A DNA stretch of 64,000 bases from Planctomycetales bacterium 10988 (GTDB taxonomy: Bacteria; Planctomycetota; Planctomycetia; Pirellulales; Pb10988), in assembly GCA_009664345.1 (NCBI GenBank), contig CP043547.1, forward strand, positions 2,198,709-2,262,708. Reading direction: 5' to 3'. Made by a program: the position numbers and the translations under genes. How positions within the stretch are numbered: position 1 is the first letter of the stretch; each line of letters opens with the position of its first letter. Below the pieces are notes generated by a model. The model saw only the letters and a list, made by a program, of their open reading frames with translations. It ran no database searches and had not been told where the DNA came from. Positions 1,385 through 12,171 of the stretch are shown here, one piece after another.

Positions 1385-1942
1385 CTATCTCCTTCTCAAC
1401 GCTCGTTGCATCTCCCGTTCGGCGGTTTTCTTCTTCATCACATTTCGCTTGTCATGCAATTGACGACCACGGCAAATACCGAGCAATACCTTGACTTTGC
1501 CCTCTTTGAAATACATTTTGAGCGGAACTAACGTGAGACCTTTTTGATACGCCTTGCTGGCAAACTTGATGATCTCGCGCTTGTGCATCAAGATTTTTCG
1601 CGACCGTTGAGGGTCATGATTGAGATAACTCGCCTCTTTATATTCAGGAATGTCACAGCCGACGAGCCAAACTTCGTCATTGCGTACGCGACCATAGGAC
1701 TCTTCCAACGAACAATGCCCGACGCGGAGACTCTTCACTTCGCTGCCGCGTAGCACCAATCCGCATTCAAGCGTTTCCAATACATCATATTCATGGCGGG
1801 CCTTCCGATTGTTGGCGATCATTCGCTCATTATCGTGTTCGCGATCCGCTTTTTTCTTCTTTGACTTCGCCGTGGGACCATCCTCCAACTGTCGCTTTCC
1901 TCTGCCACGCCCGTTCAATCTGCTGGCGGAAAGCCGTCTCAT
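1385..1942 (-). CDS. smpB: SsrA-binding protein SmpB
   Basis: Binds tmRNA and delivers it to stalled ribosomes for trans-translation. The conserved core begins at ANNRKARHEYDVLE and continues through GLVLRGSEVKSLR, a GRQLHDKR segment and a basic tail ending in RRR, as expected for SmpB. The frame gives 185 residues, about 25 more than usual, because of an Arg/Lys-rich N-terminus. The start is uncertain. The ATG at 1942 has no ribosome binding site. A TTG at 1888 is preceded by AGAGGAAAG and would give 167 residues, near the family norm. An ATG at 1822 would give 145. The last codons merge into a G-rich repeat. The gene converges with ribD. No ssrA (tmRNA) gene was recognised nearby. Confidence 0.95.
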   Translation of the reverse strand: MRRLSASRLNGRGRGKRQLEDGPTAKSKKKKADREHDNERMIANNRKARHEYDVLETLECGLVLRGSEVKSLRVGHCSLEESYGRVRNDEVWLVGCDIPEYKEASYLNHDPQRSRKILMHKREIIKFASKAYQKGLTLVPLKMYFKEGKVKVLLGICRGRQLHDKRNVMKKKTAEREMQRALRRR

Positions 1943-2337: not shown

Positions 2338-3090
2338 ATGGCGAAGTCTTCACAATCCACATCCGGCGTTTCCCTGGAAGCCTTTCTCATGGGAACGGTG
2401 GACTTTGACGCATGCTTGGCGTTGCAGCAGAGACTTGTTTACGAACTTAGTGGCCGCGACGATGGCCAAGTGGCCTTGCTACTCTGCGAACATCCGCCTT
2501 TGATCACGATCGGGCGAGCTGGCAGCTGGCAACATGTCCACCTCAATCAACGCGAACGCACCAGCCGAGGGCTTGCCGTCCGCTGGGTCAATCGCGGCGG
2601 TCCGGCGATTCTCCATGCACCAGGGCAGTTGGCCGTTTACCCCATCTTTCCCTTGGATTGGCATGAAATCGCGATCGGGACGTTCTTGGAACGCTTTCGA
2701 TCCGGGATGCAAGAAGTCCTGAGCGAATTGGGAATCCAATCCACCACGCGACCGGGGTCCTTCGACTTGTTTGGCCGCACCGGGCAACTCGCGATGACCG
2801 GGGTAGCCGTCAAGAACTGGACCACGTATTATGGTATGTACTTAAATGTTCGTCCGCCGAGCCATCTTCTTTCGGTCGTCAGCAGCGATCCGGAAGAGAA
2901 TCAAGCGACCTCGACCCTTCACCGAGAACGGCGACTTCCGCTTTCGATGACCCGCGTACGCGAAGCGGTCGTGCGGCATCTGGCGACTTCGTTTGGATGC
3001 CAACGCTTCCATGTCTATTCGGGCCACCCTCTATTTCCATCGGTATTGCATGCAAACTCGCACTCCCAAACCGCTGCCCGTGTTGGGTAA
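2338..3090 (+). CDS. LipB-family octanoyltransferase homologue lacking the catalytic Lys and Cys
   Basis: A member of the BPL/LplA/LipB fold. Canonical LipB moves octanoate from acyl carrier protein to lipoyl domains through a Cys thioester assisted by a Lys. Family motifs are visible: NRGGPAILHAPGQLAVYPI (residues about 85-103) and GMYLNV (166-171). However, the segment that carries the catalytic Lys in E. coli LipB (KICSLG) reads QLAMTG here, with Q150 at the Lys position. Counting the family spacing of 34 residues, the catalytic Cys position (PCG) falls at D184 in VSSDPEEN. The usual His of the HG motif is Tyr. The ATG at 2338 follows GGAAG; an upstream TTG at 2308 is less likely. The 3' end overlaps lipA, so the two are probably co-transcribed. 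It may be inactive, regulatory, or use different chemistry (inference). Confidence 0.85.
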   Translation: MAKSSQSTSGVSLEAFLMGTVDFDACLALQQRLVYELSGRDDGQVALLLCEHPPLITIGRAGSWQHVHLNQRERTSRGLAVRWVNRGGPAILHAPGQLAVYPIFPLDWHEIAIGTFLERFRSGMQEVLSELGIQSTTRPGSFDLFGRTGQLAMTGVAVKNWTTYYGMYLNVRPPSHLLSVVSSDPEENQATSTLHRERRLPLSMTRVREAVVRHLATSFGCQRFHVYSGHPLFPSVLHANSHSQTAARVG

Positions 3091-4000
3091 TTCGTCTCTT
3101 CCCATTTTGGAAAACAACAACTCCTGTGCGCACACCACGCCGCAGGAAGACGAACGCCTCCCACGTTGGCTGAAGCGAAAGATTCCCAAAGGTTTCGGTG
3201 CCCACTCGACGACGAAGTTGCTTGACGATTTGCGTCTGGAAACCGTTTGCGAAAACGCGAAGTGTCCGAATCGCATGGAGTGCTATGCCCATCAAACGGC
3301 GACCTTCATGATCTTGGGCAATGTCTGCACGCGACCTTGTGGGTTCTGTGCGGTGGCTCGTGGGAAAGGCTCGGAGCTGGAACTTGACGAACCGGAACGC
3401 GTCGCCGAAGCGGCCGCTCGCCTGGGCCTAGAGCATGTCGTAATCACTTCCGTCACTCGCGACGATCTGCCTGATGGCGGTGCCGAACATTATTATCAGT
3501 GCATTCAAGCGGTCCGCAAACGCACCGGTGCCGCCGTGGAAGTCTTGACGCCGGACTTCATCAAGAACAAATCCGCCCTTGATCGCGTCATCGAAGCCGC
3601 GCCGGAAGTCTTCAACCACAATACCGAAACGGTCCCGCGACTCTACCGCAAAGTTCGCGGCAGCAAGAGCGATTACCGCTGGACGCTCGGCTTGTTGAAA
3701 CGCGTTAAAGAACTCAATCCGAACATCAAGACCAAAAGCGGTTTAATGCTCGGCCTTGGGGAAACTCGGGAAGAATTGCTCGACACGCTCGCCGATTTGC
3801 GAGAGATTGATTGCGACTTCCTGACCTTGGGACAATATCTCAAGCCTGGCCCGAATTATCTTCCGGTGGTTCGCTACATCCATCCGGATGAATTTGAAGA
3901 GTTGGGTGAGATCGCCAAGAACCTTGGTTTTCGCAATGTGGCGAGCGGCCCCTTTGTCCGCTCCAGCTACCACGCCCGCGAAATGGCCGAAAGCGAATAG
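3050..4000 (+). CDS. lipA: Lipoyl synthase LipA
   Basis: Radical SAM enzyme that inserts two sulfur atoms into octanoylated lipoyl domains to form the lipoyl cofactor. With the ATG at 3050 the protein has 316 residues. The auxiliary [4Fe-4S] ligands are C67, C72 and C78 (CENAKCPNRMEC). The radical SAM motif is C93-x3-C97-x2-C100 (CTRPCGFC). The C-terminal RSSYHA motif that binds the auxiliary cluster is present. Every expected catalytic element is intact, in contrast to the LipB-like neighbour. The frame stays open upstream to a TTG at 2993, but the family N-terminus favours 3050. The gene overlaps the end of the lipB homologue by 41 bases and is followed 41 bases later by a lipoyl-like domain gene, which suggests a three-gene operon. 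Confidence 0.97.
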   Translation: MQTRTPKPLPVLGNSSLPILENNNSCAHTTPQEDERLPRWLKRKIPKGFGAHSTTKLLDDLRLETVCENAKCPNRMECYAHQTATFMILGNVCTRPCGFCAVARGKGSELELDEPERVAEAAARLGLEHVVITSVTRDDLPDGGAEHYYQCIQAVRKRTGAAVEVLTPDFIKNKSALDRVIEAAPEVFNHNTETVPRLYRKVRGSKSDYRWTLGLLKRVKELNPNIKTKSGLMLGLGETREELLDTLADLREIDCDFLTLGQYLKPGPNYLPVVRYIHPDEFEELGEIAKNLGFRNVASGPFVRSSYHAREMAESE

Positions 4001-4041: not shown

Positions 4042-4299
4042 ATGACCTCGAACCGTACAATGCTGGTTCTCCCCGATTTGAACCTTCCTGCCACCACCCC
4101 GGTGCAGGCAAGTGTCTACTTGGTCCCAGAGGGAAATACCTTCTTCCTCGGCGATCGTCTGTTGGAAGTCTTTGCCGGAAGTGCAACCTTTGACCTGCCT
4201 GCACCTGTCAGCGGTCGCTTGGTCGAATGGCTTGTCGACGAAGGCGAAACACTCACCATCGGGCAAGAGTTGGCCATCCTCGAAGCCACTGATCTTTGA
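4042..4299 (+). CDS. Stand-alone lipoyl/biotinyl-like domain without the acceptor lysine
   Basis: An 85-residue protein that is almost entirely one biotinyl/lipoyl-type beta-barrel. The hallmark turn DLPAPVSGRLVEWLVDEGE (51-69) is followed by a closing strand near ELAILE. In lipoyl domains the modified lysine lies in a DKA turn about six residues before the P-A/S-P motif. Here the aligned stretch is EVFAGSATFDLPAP, with S47 in place of Lys. No other lysine is present in the domain, so standard lipoylation or biotinylation looks impossible. I chose the ATG at 4042; a TTG at 4018 is also in frame. It follows lipA closely on the same strand, which suggests a role linked to lipoate metabolism, for instance as a decoy or regulatory partner (inference). 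Confidence 0.75.
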   Translation: MTSNRTMLVLPDLNLPATTPVQASVYLVPEGNTFFLGDRLLEVFAGSATFDLPAPVSGRLVEWLVDEGETLTIGQELAILEATDL

Positions 4300-4323: not shown

Positions 4324-5091
4324 TTATGCTAGCGTTTCGAAATCCAACTGCCCCCAAAGGCTTGGGTCTTCGGCAAAAGGAAACGGATCACCCGCGGTAA
4401 ACGTCCATTCGCCCAGCTCGCGGTCTTGCAAATAATATTGAAAGCCGACTTGGGGGGTTTCTTCCGGGGCAAATCCCGAAAGGATCGCAGCAGGCAGAAA
4501 GATCGCCAATTGATAACCGCCGGAAATCGACTTGCTTGTAATTTCCAAGAGGGAAGAATCAATCTCAGGAGGTTCCGCCTTCGCTCGGGCGACAGGGGCC
4601 GTCTCCAAAATCGGGGCCTTTTGCGATTTCCCTTTTCCTTCCGGCAAAGCAATGAACCTCTGGCAGTATCGCGTTGCCCGCTTCACGCCCGGTGAAGGAC
4701 GCATATCAAGTAAGAGTTGCAAACCATCGCTCTCTTCTAAACGCGTCGATCGACACCAAGGAAGCGAACGCTTGCCGGTGAGCCGTAAACAAAATCCTAG
4801 CCCTGTCTCCGACCAGCCCGCCCGCAGGTCCACAAACTCCGGCGCTCCTTCGAGCGTGCCAAACTCCGGCAATCGGTACGCTTCTGAAAGTGCTTGTGTT
4901 TTCGCCAGGTCCAACTTTTCGACATGAAAACAAGGAACTGCAAAGCGAAAGAAAAAACGGGCAGGAATCTCCGGCGGTTGAACTCCCGCCATCGAGGCAT
5001 CGCCGGCATCCGCACTCAATGCCGCCATCTCCTCCCCACTTAAAACCGCGGAGACCGCCTTTTTCCGTCGTCGCCGTCGTTTTCTCGCCAT
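4324..5091 (-). CDS. Conserved-looking hypothetical protein with possible CBM9-like fold
   Basis: 255 residues with a very basic N-terminus (MARKRRRRRKK), no signal peptide and no membrane segment. The C-terminal part resembles the beta-sandwich of CBM9/DOMON-like sugar-binding domains: DGLQLLLDMRP near residues 122-132, a long strand GYQLAIFLPAAIL, and an ending of the DPSLWGQLDF type. That comparison is by eye and weak. The gene lies 39 bases downstream of uvrA on the same strand, so it may share its transcript, and it converges with the lipoyl-like gene. I do not recognise a specific function. Confidence 0.65.
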   Translation of the reverse strand: MARKRRRRRKKAVSAVLSGEEMAALSADAGDASMAGVQPPEIPARFFFRFAVPCFHVEKLDLAKTQALSEAYRLPEFGTLEGAPEFVDLRAGWSETGLGFCLRLTGKRSLPWCRSTRLEESDGLQLLLDMRPSPGVKRATRYCQRFIALPEGKGKSQKAPILETAPVARAKAEPPEIDSSLLEITSKSISGGYQLAIFLPAAILSGFAPEETPQVGFQYYLQDRELGEWTFTAGDPFPFAEDPSLWGQLDFETLA

Positions 5092-5130: not shown

Positions 5131-8100
5131 TCAGGAAATCGCCGCCGCGGCCACCACCTGGAAATGCTCTTGTAGCAAGGTCATTAGCCCCGGTTGATTC
5201 AATTCGTCCGCTGTTTTCAAGGTGAAACGAATGGCATCGAAGTCCTCTTTTTTCTCCTCGATCAACTCCACTTCGTGCAGCCACTGCACCAACTGCCCAT
5301 AGGCGAACGCCCCGCTTGGACCATTGAGTTGAACCACCAAACCTTCCACCTTCTTGGTGATCATCGTCACCCAAGGCTGTGATTGTTGCGGAATGGAATA
5401 ATGCACTAAGAGTTGCTGCTTCCAATCGAATTGGCCGTCAGGAGCAATCGACCGCAAGAGGTCCGCGAGCGACTGTAACAGTTCGGGATGCTCCCAATCG
5501 AGAGTTTTGCCAGCAGGGAAACCGCTCGATCCGAGGTGCCACTTCTCCCCCATGACCTTCCACGGCATCCAGTTCTCGACATTCTGCCCACGCAAGTCAT
5601 TTAGTTGTGAGAAACTCTCGATCGCTTCGGCAAGAAACTTGGAAAAGGATTTCGAGTTCAGCTCACTTCCTTGATGAATTTTGAACATAATTTCCTGCAT
5701 CGGGCCGCGTTGCTGACGAACAGTCACCCGAGCATCTGAACCATAGACCGGCAAATCCTGCATTTCATCGAGCGTTGGCAAAGGAAACTCACGCTGAAGA
5801 GTCGCCTGCTTGAACGTGTTTCGCTTCACCCGAAATTTCAACGTGAGAATCCAAGGATGAGAGGTGTGTGCATGTAAAAACCAACCGTGTGACTTCACCG
5901 GAGCGGCGATTTCCACCACCGAGCGATGGTTCCAATTCGTTTCGCTGAACTCCCCGTTCTCCTGGATTTGGTCCACCAACTCGCCTAGAAAATTGCCGTC
6001 CCATTTGCATGGTTTTCCCTTGGTACTGACGCGATCCTCGGTATGCCACTTGCGACCATTCTCCTCCCACGGCATCTGAACCTCAGCCCCGAGGCTTTCC
6101 AGCTCGGTTTTGAGAGACTCAACCGCTTCCTCTTCTGGCACAAAGACGGACCGTTCTTGATATGGCCCAGCGGCGAGAATCTCCGTGAGGACCTCCCCGG
6201 TATACGATCGCAAAACGGGAACCGGTGCGGCTTTCTTCGTCTTCCGCTTCTTAGTGGTTGCATTGTTTTCGGTTGATTTTTGGGCTTTGGCATAGGAAAC
6301 CACTTCTTCTGGCGTGCCGCAAGTCACCAACTGCCCGCCAGCTTGCCCAGCCTCGGGGCCAAGCTCCAAAATCCAATCCGCACACTTCATCACATCGAGA
6401 TTATGCTCAATGACGACAACCGTATTGCCCAAATCCACCAATCGCTGAAAGACATCAAGCAACTTCGCCAAGTCTTCAAAGTGCAATCCGGTGGTCGGCT
6501 CATCCAATAAATAGAGTGTTCTGCCAGTGTCCGGCCTTCCCAATTCCGCCGCGAGCTTCACGCGTTGGGCCTCCCCACCTGAGAGCGTTGGGGCCGGTTG
6601 TCCAAGGCGAAGATATTCCAAGCCAACATCACACAGCAACTTCAAGACGCGATGAATCTTGGGAACATTTTCGAAAAGCTCTTTTGCCTTGCCACAAGAA
6701 AGCTCCAACACATCGGCGATACTCTTGCCACGGAATTGAACTTCCAGGGTCTCCGCCTGATAGCGACGCCCTTTGCACGACTCGCATTCCACCCAAACGT
6801 CGGGCAAAAAGTGCATTTCAATCAATCGCTGACCACTGCCCTGGCATTCCTCGCAGCGACCGCCGGGGACATTGAAACTAAACTGCCTCGCCGAATAACC
6901 ACGAATCTTCGCCAGAGGAATCTGGGCAAACAGATCACGAATCAAGTCAAAAACCCCGGTGTAGGTTGCCGGCGTCGAGGTCGGCGAATTGCCAAGCGGT
7001 TGCTGATCGACACGAATCACCTTGTTGATATGCTCGATGCCCTCGATCCGAGCATGCGAACCGGGAATCAAGCGGGCACGATGCAACCGACGAGCCATCG
7101 CCTTATAAAGGATGTCCTCAATCAGGGTACTTTTGCCACTTCCGCTCAGCCCTGCCACCACGGTCAACGTGCCAAGCGGAATCGAAACATCAATCGATTT
7201 CAAATTATGATGGCGAGCCTGACAGACGGTCAACCACTGCTGTTCCACCGGGCCGACTTCTTGGGCATCAAACTTCTCCGCCGAGGCGATATCACACCCA
7301 ACAGCTAACTCCTCCACATCGCAACGGGCATCAATTCGCCGATTCGCAGGAATGGCAATCGACTTTTTTCCGGACAAAAACGGCCCGGTAACCGAACTCT
7401 TGCGGCGAGCAACTTGCTTCGGAGTTCCACTCGCCACAATATTTCCGCCGAACTCCCCTGCCCCAGGCCCAAAGTCGAGCAACCGGTCCGCCGCCTCTAA
7501 CACCTCGCGGTCATGTTCGACCAATAATAGAGTGTTGCCCAAATCTCGCAGGCGTTCTAATGCCCGAATCAGCCGACGATTATCTCTCGGATGCAGCCCG
7601 ACCGTCGGTTCATCCAGCACATACAGCACGCCGGTCAGCCCGCTGCCGATTTGACTCGCCAATCGAATCCGCTGAGCTTCCCCGCCGGACAAGGTCGGTG
7701 CCGTGCGGTGAAGGGTCAAGTATTCCAAACCAACTTCGACCAGGAATCGCAAACGATTGCAAATCTCCCGCAAGATTTCCTCGGCAATCTTGGCCTGGCT
7801 CGTGTCTAACTTCCGCGTTTCGAAATAGGTCAAAAGCTCATTGAGTGGCAATCGGCAGACATCATCAATCGTCAAACCGCCTGCGTCGGAAATTTCCGCC
7901 TCTTTCTCGGCTAAATGCAAATGATAGGCAGCGGCATCATCGCGAAGGCGACTTCCTCCACAAGTCGAACACTCGACCTGATCGACGATCGCATCGAATT
8001 TCCCCCGTAAACTTGCCGACAACCGGCATGCCTCGGCAATCGCCGGATAAAGTCCTTTATATTGAAAGCGAAACAGCGGGCGTTTTGACTTTTTCTTCCC

Positions 8101-11100
8101 CGCAGGAAAAACCTCGATCCACGTTTCCCCGGCCCCATGCAAAACCGTGCGGCGATCCTTGCTCGACAACTGATCGAAAGGCACGTCCGTCGGCACACCG
8201 GTCTGCTCTTCCAAAGCCGAAAGCATTTGCTGAAAGAGCCCTGCACTGACATCCGGCCACAAGGCAACCGCCCCTTCCGCCAGCGTCAACTTGCCATCTT
8301 TCAAAAGAGCCGTCGGATTCGCCCCGGTTTGCGTGCCTAATCCCTCACAATCCGGGCACCAACCAAGCGAACTATTGAAAGAAAAATGGTGCGGCGAAAG
8401 AGCTTCGAAGCTGCGACCGCAAGAAAGGCAGGCTAAATGTTGACTGAGAACAACCGTTTTCCATTTTTTCTCCGGCGTCTCTTCTTCGACAATCGCGACA
8501 TGCAACACTCCCTGCCCCAATGCGAGGGCCGTTTCGACACTATCCGCCAAGCGGGAACGGCTCTGCTGGCGCACCGTAATCCGATCAAGCACGACTTCCA
8601 CCGTATGTTTCCGGCGGCGATCGATCTTGGGAAGCTTATCGAGCGTATATGTTTTGCTATCGATGCGAACGCGGTGATAACCCGACTCTCGCATCTCGTC
8701 CCACAGTTGCTCGTATTTTTCCCCGACAGAAACCTGGAGCGGAGCCATAATATAGAGCCGCGAACCGGCGGGAAATTGCAAGATCTGATCAATGATTTCA
8801 TCAGTGGTCTGCGTCCCGATCGGAATTTCACAACTCGGGCAATACGGCGTTCCGACCCTAGCGAAGAGGACGCGCAAATAGTCATAAATCTCCGTCACTG
8901 TTCCCACGGTCGAACGTGGAGTGTGAGCGAGATTTTTTTGCTCAATCGCAATCGCTGGAGACAGGCCGGAAATTTGTTCAAGCTTTGGCTTTTGCATCTG
9001 CGAGACAAACTGCCGGGCGTACGCACTCAGACTTTCAATATAACGGCGTTGCCCTTCGGCATAGATCGTATCCATGGCCAGGGAACTTTTTCCCGAACCA
9101 CTCAGCCCACAACAAACCGACATTTTATCGCGGGGGATATCGACATCGACTTGTTTTAAATTATGTTGAGCCGCCCCACGTAGTTGAATTGTTTGTAAAC
9201 TTTTGCCGTTTGTCTTTCTTTTAGTAGAAGTTTTCTTTTTTCCATTCCGTGAAGATTTTGATGTACTTGCTTGTCGTTTAAATAGTTTCGCTAAAGCTTG
9301 TCCGGTGTGAGAATCTTTGTGCTGAGCAATCTCCTCCGGGGTTCCTTGAGAAATGATTTGCCCGCCATCTTTGCCCCCTTCCGGACCGAGATCGAGAATC
9401 CAATCGGCAGTCTTGATCACATCAAGATTATGTTCAATAACAAGAACGGTATTACCGGCTTCCACAAAATCCGTCAAGACTTTTAACAGCTGATGGATAT
9501 CCGCAAAGTGAAGTCCTGTCGTTGGCTCATCAAGTAAATAAACCGTTTGCCCGGTGCTCCGTTTAACCAACTCTCTGGCAAGTTTAATTCGCTGGGCTTC
9601 TCCTCCAGAAAGCGTTGGCGAAGGCTGCCCCAATTTTAAATAGTCTAAGCCCACGTCTTTTAAAGTTTTTAATTTATCCGCGACCGGCGTGATTTCTGAA
9701 AAATGTTCCAGCGCTTCATGCACTTCTAAATCAAGGACTTCCGCGATTGATTTATCACGATATTTAATTTGTAAAGTCTCATGATTGAAGCGTTGACCTT
9801 TACAAACAGGACACGTCACCCAAACATCGGCCAAGAAATCCATTTCCAAACGGTTGGAACCATTTCCTTCACAGGCTTCGCACCTTCCGCCTGCCACATT
9901 GAAACTAAAGCGACCCGGTTGATAACCCCGTGATTTCGAAAGTGGAAGTTTTGCATAAAGCTTTCGAATTTCATCAAACACTTTAATGTAGGTCGCCGGA
10001 TTGGAGCGAGGAGTTCTTCCAATCGGGGATTGATCGATGGCAATCAGTTTATCGAGATGTTCGATACCTTCAATGGATTGATGTTTTCCAGGAACGGATT
10101 CCGCCCCGTTTAAATCTCGCCGGAGGGCTTTGCTTAAAATATCAACAATGAGCGAACTTTTTCCCGAACCGGAAACCCCTGTCACACAAACAAATAGCCC
10201 TAAAGGAATTTCAGCGGTGACATTTTTTAAATTATGATGGGTTGCCCCGACGACTTTTAATTTTTTCTCTGTGGGAAGTCGGCGCGATTCAGGAATGACA
10301 ATTTCTTTGCGACCGGAAAGATAATCGCCTGTTAAACTTTCTTTACTTTTTAATAGGTCATGATAGGAACCTTCCCCAACAATGCGACCGCCGCGATGGC
10401 CGGGACCGGGGCCGAAATCGATTAAATAATCGGACTCCCGCATGGTGTCTTCATCATGTTCAACGACAACAACGGTATTGCCCAGGTCTCGCAATTGATG
10501 CAAAGTTTCAATCAAGCGATCATTGTCACGCGGATGCAGCCCGATGGAAGGTTCATCTAAAATATAAGTTACCCCGACAAGACCACAACCGACCTGACCG
10601 GCCAGGCGAATTCTTTGCGACTCTCCACCTGACAAAGTGGGAGCCGATCGATTCAAGGATAAATAATTTAATCCGACATTTAACAAGAAACCCAACCGCC
10701 CACGAATCTCTTTCAATAGTTCGGTCGCGATTGTTTGTTGAGTGTCAGAAAGTGTCAGATCCTGAAAGAAATCCGCTGCTTCCTCAATGGAAAGCTTACA
10801 AACTTCTGGTAGCGATCGTTGAGGCTGATCTTTAAAATCAGGATGACTTGTTGTTAGTCGAACGTTCCTTGCTTGTAAATTAAGACGATCCCCCTCACAA
10901 TAATTACAAGGTTGAATATTCATAAACCGTTCCATCTTTTTTCGATAGAGACGGCTGGTTGAATTTCCATAGCGACTTAACAAGTCGGGAATGATTCCTT
11001 CATATTTTCCACCATATTTTTCTATTTTTCTTTTGGCCCGCCAACTAAACGTGATATGGAGATCGCCGGTTCCGAAAAGGATAGAATTTTGGAAATAAGG

Positions 11101-12171
11101 ATTAAGTTCTTTCCACGGTGTTTTTAAAATTGTTCCTGACTTGGCGTCTTGTTGATATTCTAATGTTTCCGCCACGCCTTCAAAAATATGGCGACGCCAC
11201 CGACCTAGTTCTTTCCAAGGGCCGATTAAATCAATACAACCTTGTTGAAAAGACAGCTCCGGATTGGTAACTAAAAGATCGGGATCAATCGTGGTGCGAA
11301 TTCCGATTCCCTGACAGGCCGGACACATCCCTTGCGGACTGTTGAAACTAAACAGTTGCGGGCTGGGAGGTTCATAACTGACATCACACGGGATACAACA
11401 ATAACGTGAAGAAAGTCGTAGCTCTTGCGGTTGATCGTCCTGCGGAGTTTGTAAATCTGTCAGAACATAAAGGTCACCATCGCCATGTTTAAGACCTTGC
11501 CCGACGGCTTCGGCTAAGCGAGAACGACTCTCCTTGGAAACCGTCAACCGATCAATGACGATTTCAATATCATGCCGCATCTGCCGATCCAGGCCTAAAT
11601 TTTCGGTAAGTCGTACGACTTTGCCATCGACACGGGCACGGAGGAAACCTTGCTTGAGCAAGTCTTCAAAGAGGTCACGGTACTCCCCTTTTTGAGCACG
11701 AATCACCGGGGCGAGGATTTGAATTTTGGTCTTTTCCGGCAGGGATAAGATACGGTCGATGATCTGTTCGCGGCTCTGTCCGGTCAGCGGTGCCTGACAA
11801 CGCGGGCAGTGCCCTTCGCCCACCCGTGCATAGAGGACGCGCAAAAAGTCATAAATTTCCGTGATCGTTCCAACGGTCGAACGGGGGTTCTGGCCGCTTG
11901 TTTTTTGCGAGATGGAAATCGAAGGAGAAAGCCCACTAAGATAATCGGCATCCGGCTTCGGCATTTGCCCCAGAAATTGCCGGGCGAAGCTCGAAAGGCT
12001 TTCGATATAACGTCGCTGCCCTTCGGCATAGAGCGTATCGAAGGCGAGCGAACTTTTTCCCGAACCGCTGACGCCGGTGAGGCAAATCAGTTGATTTCGC
12101 GGGAGAGTAACATCGACATTTTGTAAATTATGCTCGCGGGCCCCGCGAATGATGATCTCGGAAGCGTCCAT
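5131..12171 (-). CDS. uvrA: Fused double UvrA (excinuclease ABC subunit A) with C-terminal extension
   Basis: The damage-recognition ATPase of nucleotide excision repair normally works as a dimer of about 940 residues. Here 2346 residues hold two complete copies. Copy A (about 1-960) has GVSGSGKSSLAFDTLYAEG and a second Walker A GVSGSGKSSLIVD, signatures LSGGESQRIRL and LSGGEAQRIKL, and zinc-module CxxC pairs. A Lys/Ser-rich linker (about 965-995) leads to copy B (about 995-1960), with GLSGSGKSSLAMD, GLSGSGKSTLIED, two LSGGEAQR signatures and its own zinc modules. All four ATPase sites look intact. A basic linker then leads to about 360 extra residues with two copies of an MPW(E/K)xxGxKWH motif. 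No stop or frameshift interrupts the chain. Dimeric fused UvrA is known from planctomycetes; the extension I cannot assign. DNA for most of copy A is clearly more AT-rich than the rest. Confidence 0.96.
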   Translation of the reverse strand: MDASEIIIRGAREHNLQNVDVTLPRNQLICLTGVSGSGKSSLAFDTLYAEGQRRYIESLSSFARQFLGQMPKPDADYLSGLSPSISISQKTSGQNPRSTVGTITEIYDFLRVLYARVGEGHCPRCQAPLTGQSREQIIDRILSLPEKTKIQILAPVIRAQKGEYRDLFEDLLKQGFLRARVDGKVVRLTENLGLDRQMRHDIEIVIDRLTVSKESRSRLAEAVGQGLKHGDGDLYVLTDLQTPQDDQPQELRLSSRYCCIPCDVSYEPPSPQLFSFNSPQGMCPACQGIGIRTTIDPDLLVTNPELSFQQGCIDLIGPWKELGRWRRHIFEGVAETLEYQQDAKSGTILKTPWKELNPYFQNSILFGTGDLHITFSWRAKRKIEKYGGKYEGIIPDLLSRYGNSTSRLYRKKMERFMNIQPCNYCEGDRLNLQARNVRLTTSHPDFKDQPQRSLPEVCKLSIEEAADFFQDLTLSDTQQTIATELLKEIRGRLGFLLNVGLNYLSLNRSAPTLSGGESQRIRLAGQVGCGLVGVTYILDEPSIGLHPRDNDRLIETLHQLRDLGNTVVVVEHDEDTMRESDYLIDFGPGPGHRGGRIVGEGSYHDLLKSKESLTGDYLSGRKEIVIPESRRLPTEKKLKVVGATHHNLKNVTAEIPLGLFVCVTGVSGSGKSSLIVDILSKALRRDLNGAESVPGKHQSIEGIEHLDKLIAIDQSPIGRTPRSNPATYIKVFDEIRKLYAKLPLSKSRGYQPGRFSFNVAGGRCEACEGNGSNRLEMDFLADVWVTCPVCKGQRFNHETLQIKYRDKSIAEVLDLEVHEALEHFSEITPVADKLKTLKDVGLDYLKLGQPSPTLSGGEAQRIKLARELVKRSTGQTVYLLDEPTTGLHFADIHQLLKVLTDFVEAGNTVLVIEHNLDVIKTADWILDLGPEGGKDGGQIISQGTPEEIAQHKDSHTGQALAKLFKRQASTSKSSRNGKKKTSTKRKTNGKSLQTIQLRGAAQHNLKQVDVDIPRDKMSVCCGLSGSGKSSLAMDTIYAEGQRRYIESLSAYARQFVSQMQKPKLEQISGLSPAIAIEQKNLAHTPRSTVGTVTEIYDYLRVLFARVGTPYCPSCEIPIGTQTTDEIIDQILQFPAGSRLYIMAPLQVSVGEKYEQLWDEMRESGYHRVRIDSKTYTLDKLPKIDRRRKHTVEVVLDRITVRQQSRSRLADSVETALALGQGVLHVAIVEEETPEKKWKTVVLSQHLACLSCGRSFEALSPHHFSFNSSLGWCPDCEGLGTQTGANPTALLKDGKLTLAEGAVALWPDVSAGLFQQMLSALEEQTGVPTDVPFDQLSSKDRRTVLHGAGETWIEVFPAGKKKSKRPLFRFQYKGLYPAIAEACRLSASLRGKFDAIVDQVECSTCGGSRLRDDAAAYHLHLAEKEAEISDAGGLTIDDVCRLPLNELLTYFETRKLDTSQAKIAEEILREICNRLRFLVEVGLEYLTLHRTAPTLSGGEAQRIRLASQIGSGLTGVLYVLDEPTVGLHPRDNRRLIRALERLRDLGNTLLLVEHDREVLEAADRLLDFGPGAGEFGGNIVASGTPKQVARRKSSVTGPFLSGKKSIAIPANRRIDARCDVEELAVGCDIASAEKFDAQEVGPVEQQWLTVCQARHHNLKSIDVSIPLGTLTVVAGLSGSGKSTLIEDILYKAMARRLHRARLIPGSHARIEGIEHINKVIRVDQQPLGNSPTSTPATYTGVFDLIRDLFAQIPLAKIRGYSARQFSFNVPGGRCEECQGSGQRLIEMHFLPDVWVECESCKGRRYQAETLEVQFRGKSIADVLELSCGKAKELFENVPKIHRVLKLLCDVGLEYLRLGQPAPTLSGGEAQRVKLAAELGRPDTGRTLYLLDEPTTGLHFEDLAKLLDVFQRLVDLGNTVVVIEHNLDVMKCADWILELGPEAGQAGGQLVTCGTPEEVVSYAKAQKSTENNATTKKRKTKKAAPVPVLRSYTGEVLTEILAAGPYQERSVFVPEEEAVESLKTELESLGAEVQMPWEENGRKWHTEDRVSTKGKPCKWDGNFLGELVDQIQENGEFSETNWNHRSVVEIAAPVKSHGWFLHAHTSHPWILTLKFRVKRNTFKQATLQREFPLPTLDEMQDLPVYGSDARVTVRQQRGPMQEIMFKIHQGSELNSKSFSKFLAEAIESFSQLNDLRGQNVENWMPWKVMGEKWHLGSSGFPAGKTLDWEHPELLQSLADLLRSIAPDGQFDWKQQLLVHYSIPQQSQPWVTMITKKVEGLVVQLNGPSGAFAYGQLVQWLHEVELIEEKKEDFDAIRFTLKTADELNQPGLMTLLQEHFQVVAAAAIS
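9190..11440. other. AT-rich block inside uvrA copy A
   Basis: Within the single uvrA frame, roughly residues 240-994 are encoded with A/T-ending codons and long A/T runs. The first 240 residues and all of copy B use the more GC-rich codons of the neighbouring genes. The change at about 9190 coincides with the linker between copies A and B. Boundaries are by eye. Confidence 0.6.

Follow-up and report, generated by a model that had tools for sequence, protein, structure and literature searches.

In the class of Planctomycetales bacterium 10988, an octanoyltransferase and its small carrier appear, judging by their aligned sequences, to have been retired and retained jointly. For both proteins, the defining residues are lost, the predicted fold and pocket residues are kept, and, with few exceptions, a genome has either both genes or neither. 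The conserved loss and the selection acting on both proteins point to a new, non-catalytic job. We hypothesize, with a probability of about 0.38, that the retired octanoyltransferase and carrier are kept together as a non-catalytic pair that binds an octanoyl ligand and modulates the lipoyl supply. The positions given below are those of the window, i.e., the whole stretch of 64,000 nucleotides that was analyzed.

Organization of the locus and family assignment

The carrier-like protein, lip85, is a free-standing protein of the lipoyl/biotinyl fold encoded at 4042..4299 on the forward strand, its frame running from ATG at 4042 to TGA at 4297-4299 and giving 85 residues with zero Lys. The Pfam profile Biotin_lipoyl PF00364 matched residues 24-80 (2e-6; 28 bits, cut-off 22.1), and in an alignment with the PDB lipoyl domain 1lab the D-K-A turn of lipoyl domains lies opposite G46-S47-A48 of lip85 (GGA AGT GCA, 4177..4185, +). 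The AlphaFold model, built with 28 orthologues as input, has six strands and a mean pLDDT of 95.3, and a PDB fold search returned lipoyl and biotinyl domains as its nearest solved structures. lip85 therefore has the fold and profile of PF00364, with Ser at the hairpin turn instead of the acceptor lysine, and the sequence-only reading of one lipoyl/biotinyl domain with a GSA turn and no Lys was confirmed by Pfam, the 1lab alignment and the model. The GCV_H profile gave no match to lip85 at E-values up to 1, which sets it apart from GcvH; the two GCV_H matches of the genome both lie elsewhere. Among the remaining biotin/lipoyl domains of this genome, the five with the best scores all have Lys at the turn. 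The Ser47 codon, AGT (4180-4182), would need two substitutions to become either codon for Lys, more than a single-base error supplies; together with the lack of Lys in all class orthologues examined, this rules out a sequencing error, named in the sequence-only reading as something that would undo it. A chance ORF was likewise ruled out by dN/dS and conservation.

The first gene of the trio encodes a LipB-like pseudo-octanoyltransferase (2338..3090, +; 250 aa). LplA-B_cat PF21948 matched it at 1e-22, as expected of the LplA/LipB catalytic-domain fold, and the best PDB fold match of its predicted model (pLDDT 92.1) was LipB 2qhs, with a TM-score of 0.91 on the target. Against TIGR00214, the NCBIfam equivalog of LipB, it scored 47.6 bits, below the cut-off of 83.55. 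Alignment to Thermus LipB placed a Gln codon (CAA, 2785..2787, +) at the catalytic Lys position and an Asp codon (GAT, 2887..2889, +) at the catalytic Cys position, the two residues that make up the catalytic dyad of LipB according to the available text of PMC9307952.

Both residues occur together in 0/42 class rows of the LipB-like alignment, the Cys being missing in 42/42 and the Lys in 41/42. The Lys site is occupied by Q in 28/42 rows and by L, R, M, H or K in the others; the Cys site has D in 24/42 and otherwise N, G, V, P, L, T or R. In E. coli numbering, R71 (39/42), G72 (41/42), G73 (42/42), H78 (41/42), Q82 (42/42) and the GR motif (42/42) are kept, and L, V or I replaces T76 in 34/42 and Y77 in 31/42 rows. 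On these residues, the proteins annotated as LipB in these planctomycetes are probably not octanoyltransferases. A conserved C-terminal tail of the LipB-like proteins (-R[VA][GS]) was rejected as a motif, being the overlap with the lipA start read in another frame.

Two further LplA-family proteins are encoded in the genome beside the LipB-like gene, and octanoyl/lipoyl transfer is probably done by these. One of the two is presumably LipM-like, judging by a Cys-containing motif. Co-occurrence of LipB and LipM in one genome is described as very rare in a survey of prokaryotic lipoate assembly (PMC10332631), the main text of which does not contain "planctomyc".

The gene between the two, lipA (3062..4000, +), encodes an apparently intact lipoyl synthase and overlaps the LipB-like gene by 29 bases. 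LipA scored 361.8 bits against the equivalog TIGR00510 (cut-off 310.25), and its sequence contains CX4CX5C, CX3CX2C and RSSY, which we take to be LipA motifs. lip85 starts 41 bases after lipA, which bears out its placement as third gene of a LipB-like/lipA/lipoyl-like series; the claim that two of the three components lack their defining residues likewise stands, with Lys missing in lip85 and Lys and Cys missing in the LipB-like protein. Two flanking genes lie outside the system: the divergent smpB (1385..1942, -), which served as locus marker across genomes, and, downstream of lip85, a conserved gene of no assigned family (4324..5091, -; 255 aa), for which no match was found in Pfam, NCBIfam or PHROGs. 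The latter is conserved next to uvrA in several families, and it was ruled out as an extra partner since it persists in the pair-less genomes G032 and G002, from which lip85 is gone. Further along the window, positions 5131-12171 (-) hold a single ORF of 2346 aa with tandem UvrA copies (halves about 46% identical) and a C-terminal extension.

Conservation of the losses and joint occurrence of the pair

lip85 was searched by sequence in 57 genomes, including that of Planctomycetales bacterium 10988; 54 gave some match, many of them long frames of E2 size. The survey of planctomycete neighbourhoods, proposed with the original reading as its check, found the Lys-less turn in 28/28 aligned free-standing orthologues of the order, 20 of which have no Lys at all, and in 14/14 additional class members, so that the turn Lys is present in 0/42 overall. 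The residue at the Lys site is G in 18, S in 11, E in 4, A in 4, P in 3 and D in 2 of these orthologues. Two other positions separate them from free carriers that retain the lysine: position 39 is R in 38/42 Lys-less class rows versus D in 17/19 Lys-bearing free carriers, and position 51 is D in 36/42 versus N in 15/19. L167, which clusters with E2 domains, was excluded from the free-carrier count, and L100, a LipB of G008 that has both Lys and Cys, was excluded from A2. In the lip85 comparison, the fixation of R39 and D51 is a new constraint, not erosion.

The losses were also followed in 68 named contigs found by LipB-like patterns, among them Blastopirellula marina, Gimesia, Planctomicrobium, Thalassoglobus, Singulisphaera and Gemmatales records; this collection overlaps with the genome set and is not independent of it, and the counts were not summed. 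The Lys/Cys sites could be read in all but three of these loci; Cys was found in 0/65 readable LipB-like sequences and Lys in 2/65. lip85 was detected in 35/68 contigs within a 4-kb flank or up to the contig end, with Lys at the site in 0/35; several contigs, e.g., Blastopirellula and Singulisphaera records, had no lip85 within the 4-kb flank.

The two genes are distributed jointly: in the 57 genomes, both were found in 29, the LipB-like gene only in 2, lip85 only in none, and neither in 26 (Fisher 3e-14, a value that ignores relatedness). The LipB-like gene was counted by profile span and by direct search with its own alignment, and G008 was placed among the 26 genomes with neither gene. The two exceptions are G003, where the LipB-like gene is there and lip85 was not found, and G027 (81% complete), where a LipB-like fragment truncated by a contig end was recovered by the direct search and lip85 was not found. 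Short lipoyl frames in the pair-less genomes G013, G021, G029 and G046 and in G027, where they were likewise considered, were rejected as lip85, as they carry Lys and are pieces of E2/biotin type.

Contrasts in presence and absence are concordant within families f9, f13, f15, f16 and f17. The LipA tree takes in 43/57 genomes and excludes, as do the distance tests described below, G010 because of its divergent LipA; its supported branches yield only three independent pairs, which agree in almost every pairing (p 0.25), and the best tree yields seven. The phylogeny-aware evidence for co-occurrence is consistent and not significant. Twelve regions were fetched, 10 of them pair-less; smpB adjoins lipA without a LipB-like gene in 6/10 (G012, G032, G043, G046, G019 and G002) and was not found within the fetched stretch in the other 4. 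LipA itself was found in 51/51 good-quality relatives, pair or no pair, and therefore does not need the pair.

Selection and the proposed role of the pair

Among the same-genus pairs listed, dN/dS was 0.03-0.24 for lip85, 0.04-0.18 for the LipB-like protein and 0.01-0.08 for LipA, by a counting method with Jukes-Cantor correction in which some pairs are near saturation. For family f15 the 8 lowest-dS of 21 pairs were listed; between its two genera, lip85 reached 0.38. With these ratios for lip85 and a Lys-less turn in every class orthologue examined, the loss is not random decay, in agreement with the sequence-only reading.

We propose the following scenario. The ancestral trio would have comprised an octanoyltransferase LipB, the lipoyl synthase LipA and a small lipoyl carrier, all working. 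In the class of Planctomycetales bacterium 10988, LipB would then have lost its Lys and Cys and the carrier its Lys, with the folds and the pairing staying in place. The LipB-like protein may bind an octanoyl-phosphopantetheine ligand (octanoyl-ACP or -CoA) in the retained pocket and dock lip85 as a permanent, non-acceptor pseudo-substrate, and such a complex could report on or modulate the octanoyl/lipoyl supply, most simply via LipA or the working transferases. As described in the available text of PMC9307952 (2022), the E. coli LipB double mutant K135A/C169A still bound octanoyl-ACP with a KD of 36 uM, and the RGG loop of the E. coli enzyme is required for full activity. The natural LipB-like proteins resemble this double mutant, so they could plausibly bind the ligand and not transfer it. 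Against the pair model, 26/57 relatives manage without either gene. A stronger version, in which a dedicated acyl-ACP sensing complex tunes lipoyl assembly across the class and a working pair serves other lineages of the phylum, is put forward only tentatively.

The distances between proteins bear on which partner lip85 contacts. In 40 genomes, lip85 distances correlated with LipA distances given the LipB-like protein (partial r 0.43, p 0.0002) and less with LipB-like distances given LipA (partial r 0.11, p 0.09); the weakness of the latter means that a primary LipB-lip85 contact is not favoured. The closer fit of lip85 to LipA may simply reflect LipA being the better clock, and the correlations fit equally well or better a rather unlikely alternative, in which lip85 occupies the carrier-docking face of LipA, by itself or jointly with the LipB-like protein, as scaffold, decoy or chaperone and stabilizes, positions or blocks LipA with no ligand sensing. 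Gene order in many families, with lipA adjacent, agrees with this alternative. In 13/28 order loci lip85 is away from lipB/lipA, which speaks against the pair model; the 11 contiguous class trios were picked for closeness of both matches and are no measure of how frequent contiguity is.

lip85 is also acidic (net charge -9; orthologue average -8.9), like the H-protein face that contacts human LIAS, described as mostly negatively charged in the available text of PMC12246082, but acidity is general among lipoyl domains, the Lys-bearing free carriers averaging -13.6. Contacts with LipA as the reason for keeping lip85 are further opposed by the pair-less genomes, which still have LipA, and by G010, which keeps the pair with lipA lost from between. 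In this genome (L220 and L301), the LipB-like gene directly overlaps lip85, and the sole lipA found is divergent (44% identical) and shares a short contig with an E1-beta-like gene and a fragment of E2; the assembly is a draft of 430 contigs, and the native lipA may be missing from it. The alternative function foreseen in the sequence-only reading gains from the paired conserved loss, and its link to LipA from the usual gene order and the distance correlation; a scaffold or a LipA decoy would be one possible form of that function.

Less probable still is a job outside lipoylation, e.g., general acyl binding or an envelope-related role, with the proximity to lipA being historical. In family f7, lip85 has an M28 peptidase gene on one side and lnt on the other (L024 2049-5001, by Pfam; L038 4775-7859, by eye), and elsewhere it was seen by eye near PSP1-like/dgkA-like genes. 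Such contexts speak for moonlighting, as does the persistence of the pair in G010 beside a divergent sole lipA; the position of lipA, which adjoins the LipB-like gene in 27/30 loci of the order and lies inside the fetched flank in 56/68 named contigs, speaks against it, and inspection by eye found no context away from lipA common to different families. A link to pyruvate dehydrogenase was rejected, as no such genes were seen by eye at orphan lip85 loci.

It is improbable that the LipB-like protein is still catalytic through other residues, with lip85 as a non-covalent activator or specificity subunit: the prevalence of Q and D at the Lys and Cys sites, respectively, is non-random, but the varied residues in the other rows leave no single replacement conserved. 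A slow decay of both genes, left over from a lost pathway, fits the dispensability of the pair in relatives that have neither gene, and is very improbable in the face of purifying selection, intact frames, the newly fixed R39 and D51 and the class-wide spread. The proposed ligand-binding pair can be directly tested using the lineages with intact Lys and Cys, the clean-deletion genomes and G010 without intervening lipA.

The trio outside the class and relation to known systems

Across 294 sampled genomes of the phylum, the matches listed for the LipB-like protein at E < 1e-50 cover 35 of the 36 genomes that belong to the same class but to another order. A branch with 100/100 support has all pseudo-LipBs on one side, and 6/6 LipBs outside the class have both Lys and Cys. 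Five linked trios were found there, with a Lys-bearing carrier in 4/5: G079 (f45), G335 and G217 (f77) and G308 (f83) combine a LipB with Lys and Cys and a linked carrier with Lys. Orthologues with Lys, which the sequence-only reading had named as counter-evidence, are thus confined to lineages outside the class; the LipBs examined there are intact as well, so these orthologues display the inferred ancestral state and leave the finding standing.

In the fifth trio, of G273 (f82), a LipB with both residues is linked to a Lys-less carrier, so the two losses need not have been simultaneous. The second genome of this family, G327, has an intact LipB and a similar Lys-less carrier on a different contig, and both f82 genomes have a Lys-bearing carrier copy elsewhere. 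These copies lie between E3-like (Lpd) and methylenetetrahydrofolate reductase genes (L175 2740-6115; L176 2897-6259), assigned by Pfam in L175 and for the E3 of L176 and by eye for the L176 reductase; this suggests a lipoyl redox carrier for methylenetetrahydrofolate reductase. In G155 and G174 (f73), lipA is followed by a Lys-less carrier, and the stretch gave no LipB-like match. An E3-like gene was found by Pfam upstream of LipB in G079, G217 and G308 and upstream of lipA in G155, and by motif alone in G335 and G174. The lip85 tree requires at least two changes of Lys state, with few columns and poorly resolved deep forks. We infer that the ancestral working state was a LipB with Lys and Cys together with a carrier with Lys; since the dyad and the Lys are the functional state of the two families, the direction would be loss, not gain.

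Searches of the open-access PMC literature listed no paper on the LipB-like/lip85 pair, judged by title or start of abstract; subscription literature falls mostly outside this scope. The LipB-like protein shares with the LipB octanoyltransferases (Thermus 2QHS, M. tuberculosis 1W66) the fold, RGG loop, H78, GQ motif and position beside lipA, and differs in the missing dyad and the mostly aliphatic residues at T76/Y77. lip85 has the fold and much of the sequence pattern of lipoyl domains and free lipoyl carriers (PF00364), but lacks the acceptor Lys and has R rather than D at 39 and D rather than N at 51. The LipB-LipA-carrier order of the window trio recurs in G079, G217, G308 and G335; those trios have the carrier Lys, the LipB Lys and Cys and an E3-like (Lpd) neighbour, in place of which the window trio has smpB and the 255-aa gene. 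The LbpA lipoate-binding proteins of the sHdr sulfur-oxidation system are also small lipoate-related carriers with dedicated genes; according to the available text of PMC6067878 they bind lipoate, whereas lip85 has no Lys to carry it. Single pseudoenzymes are known; here, an enzyme and its protein substrate both seem to have been retired and then jointly conserved.
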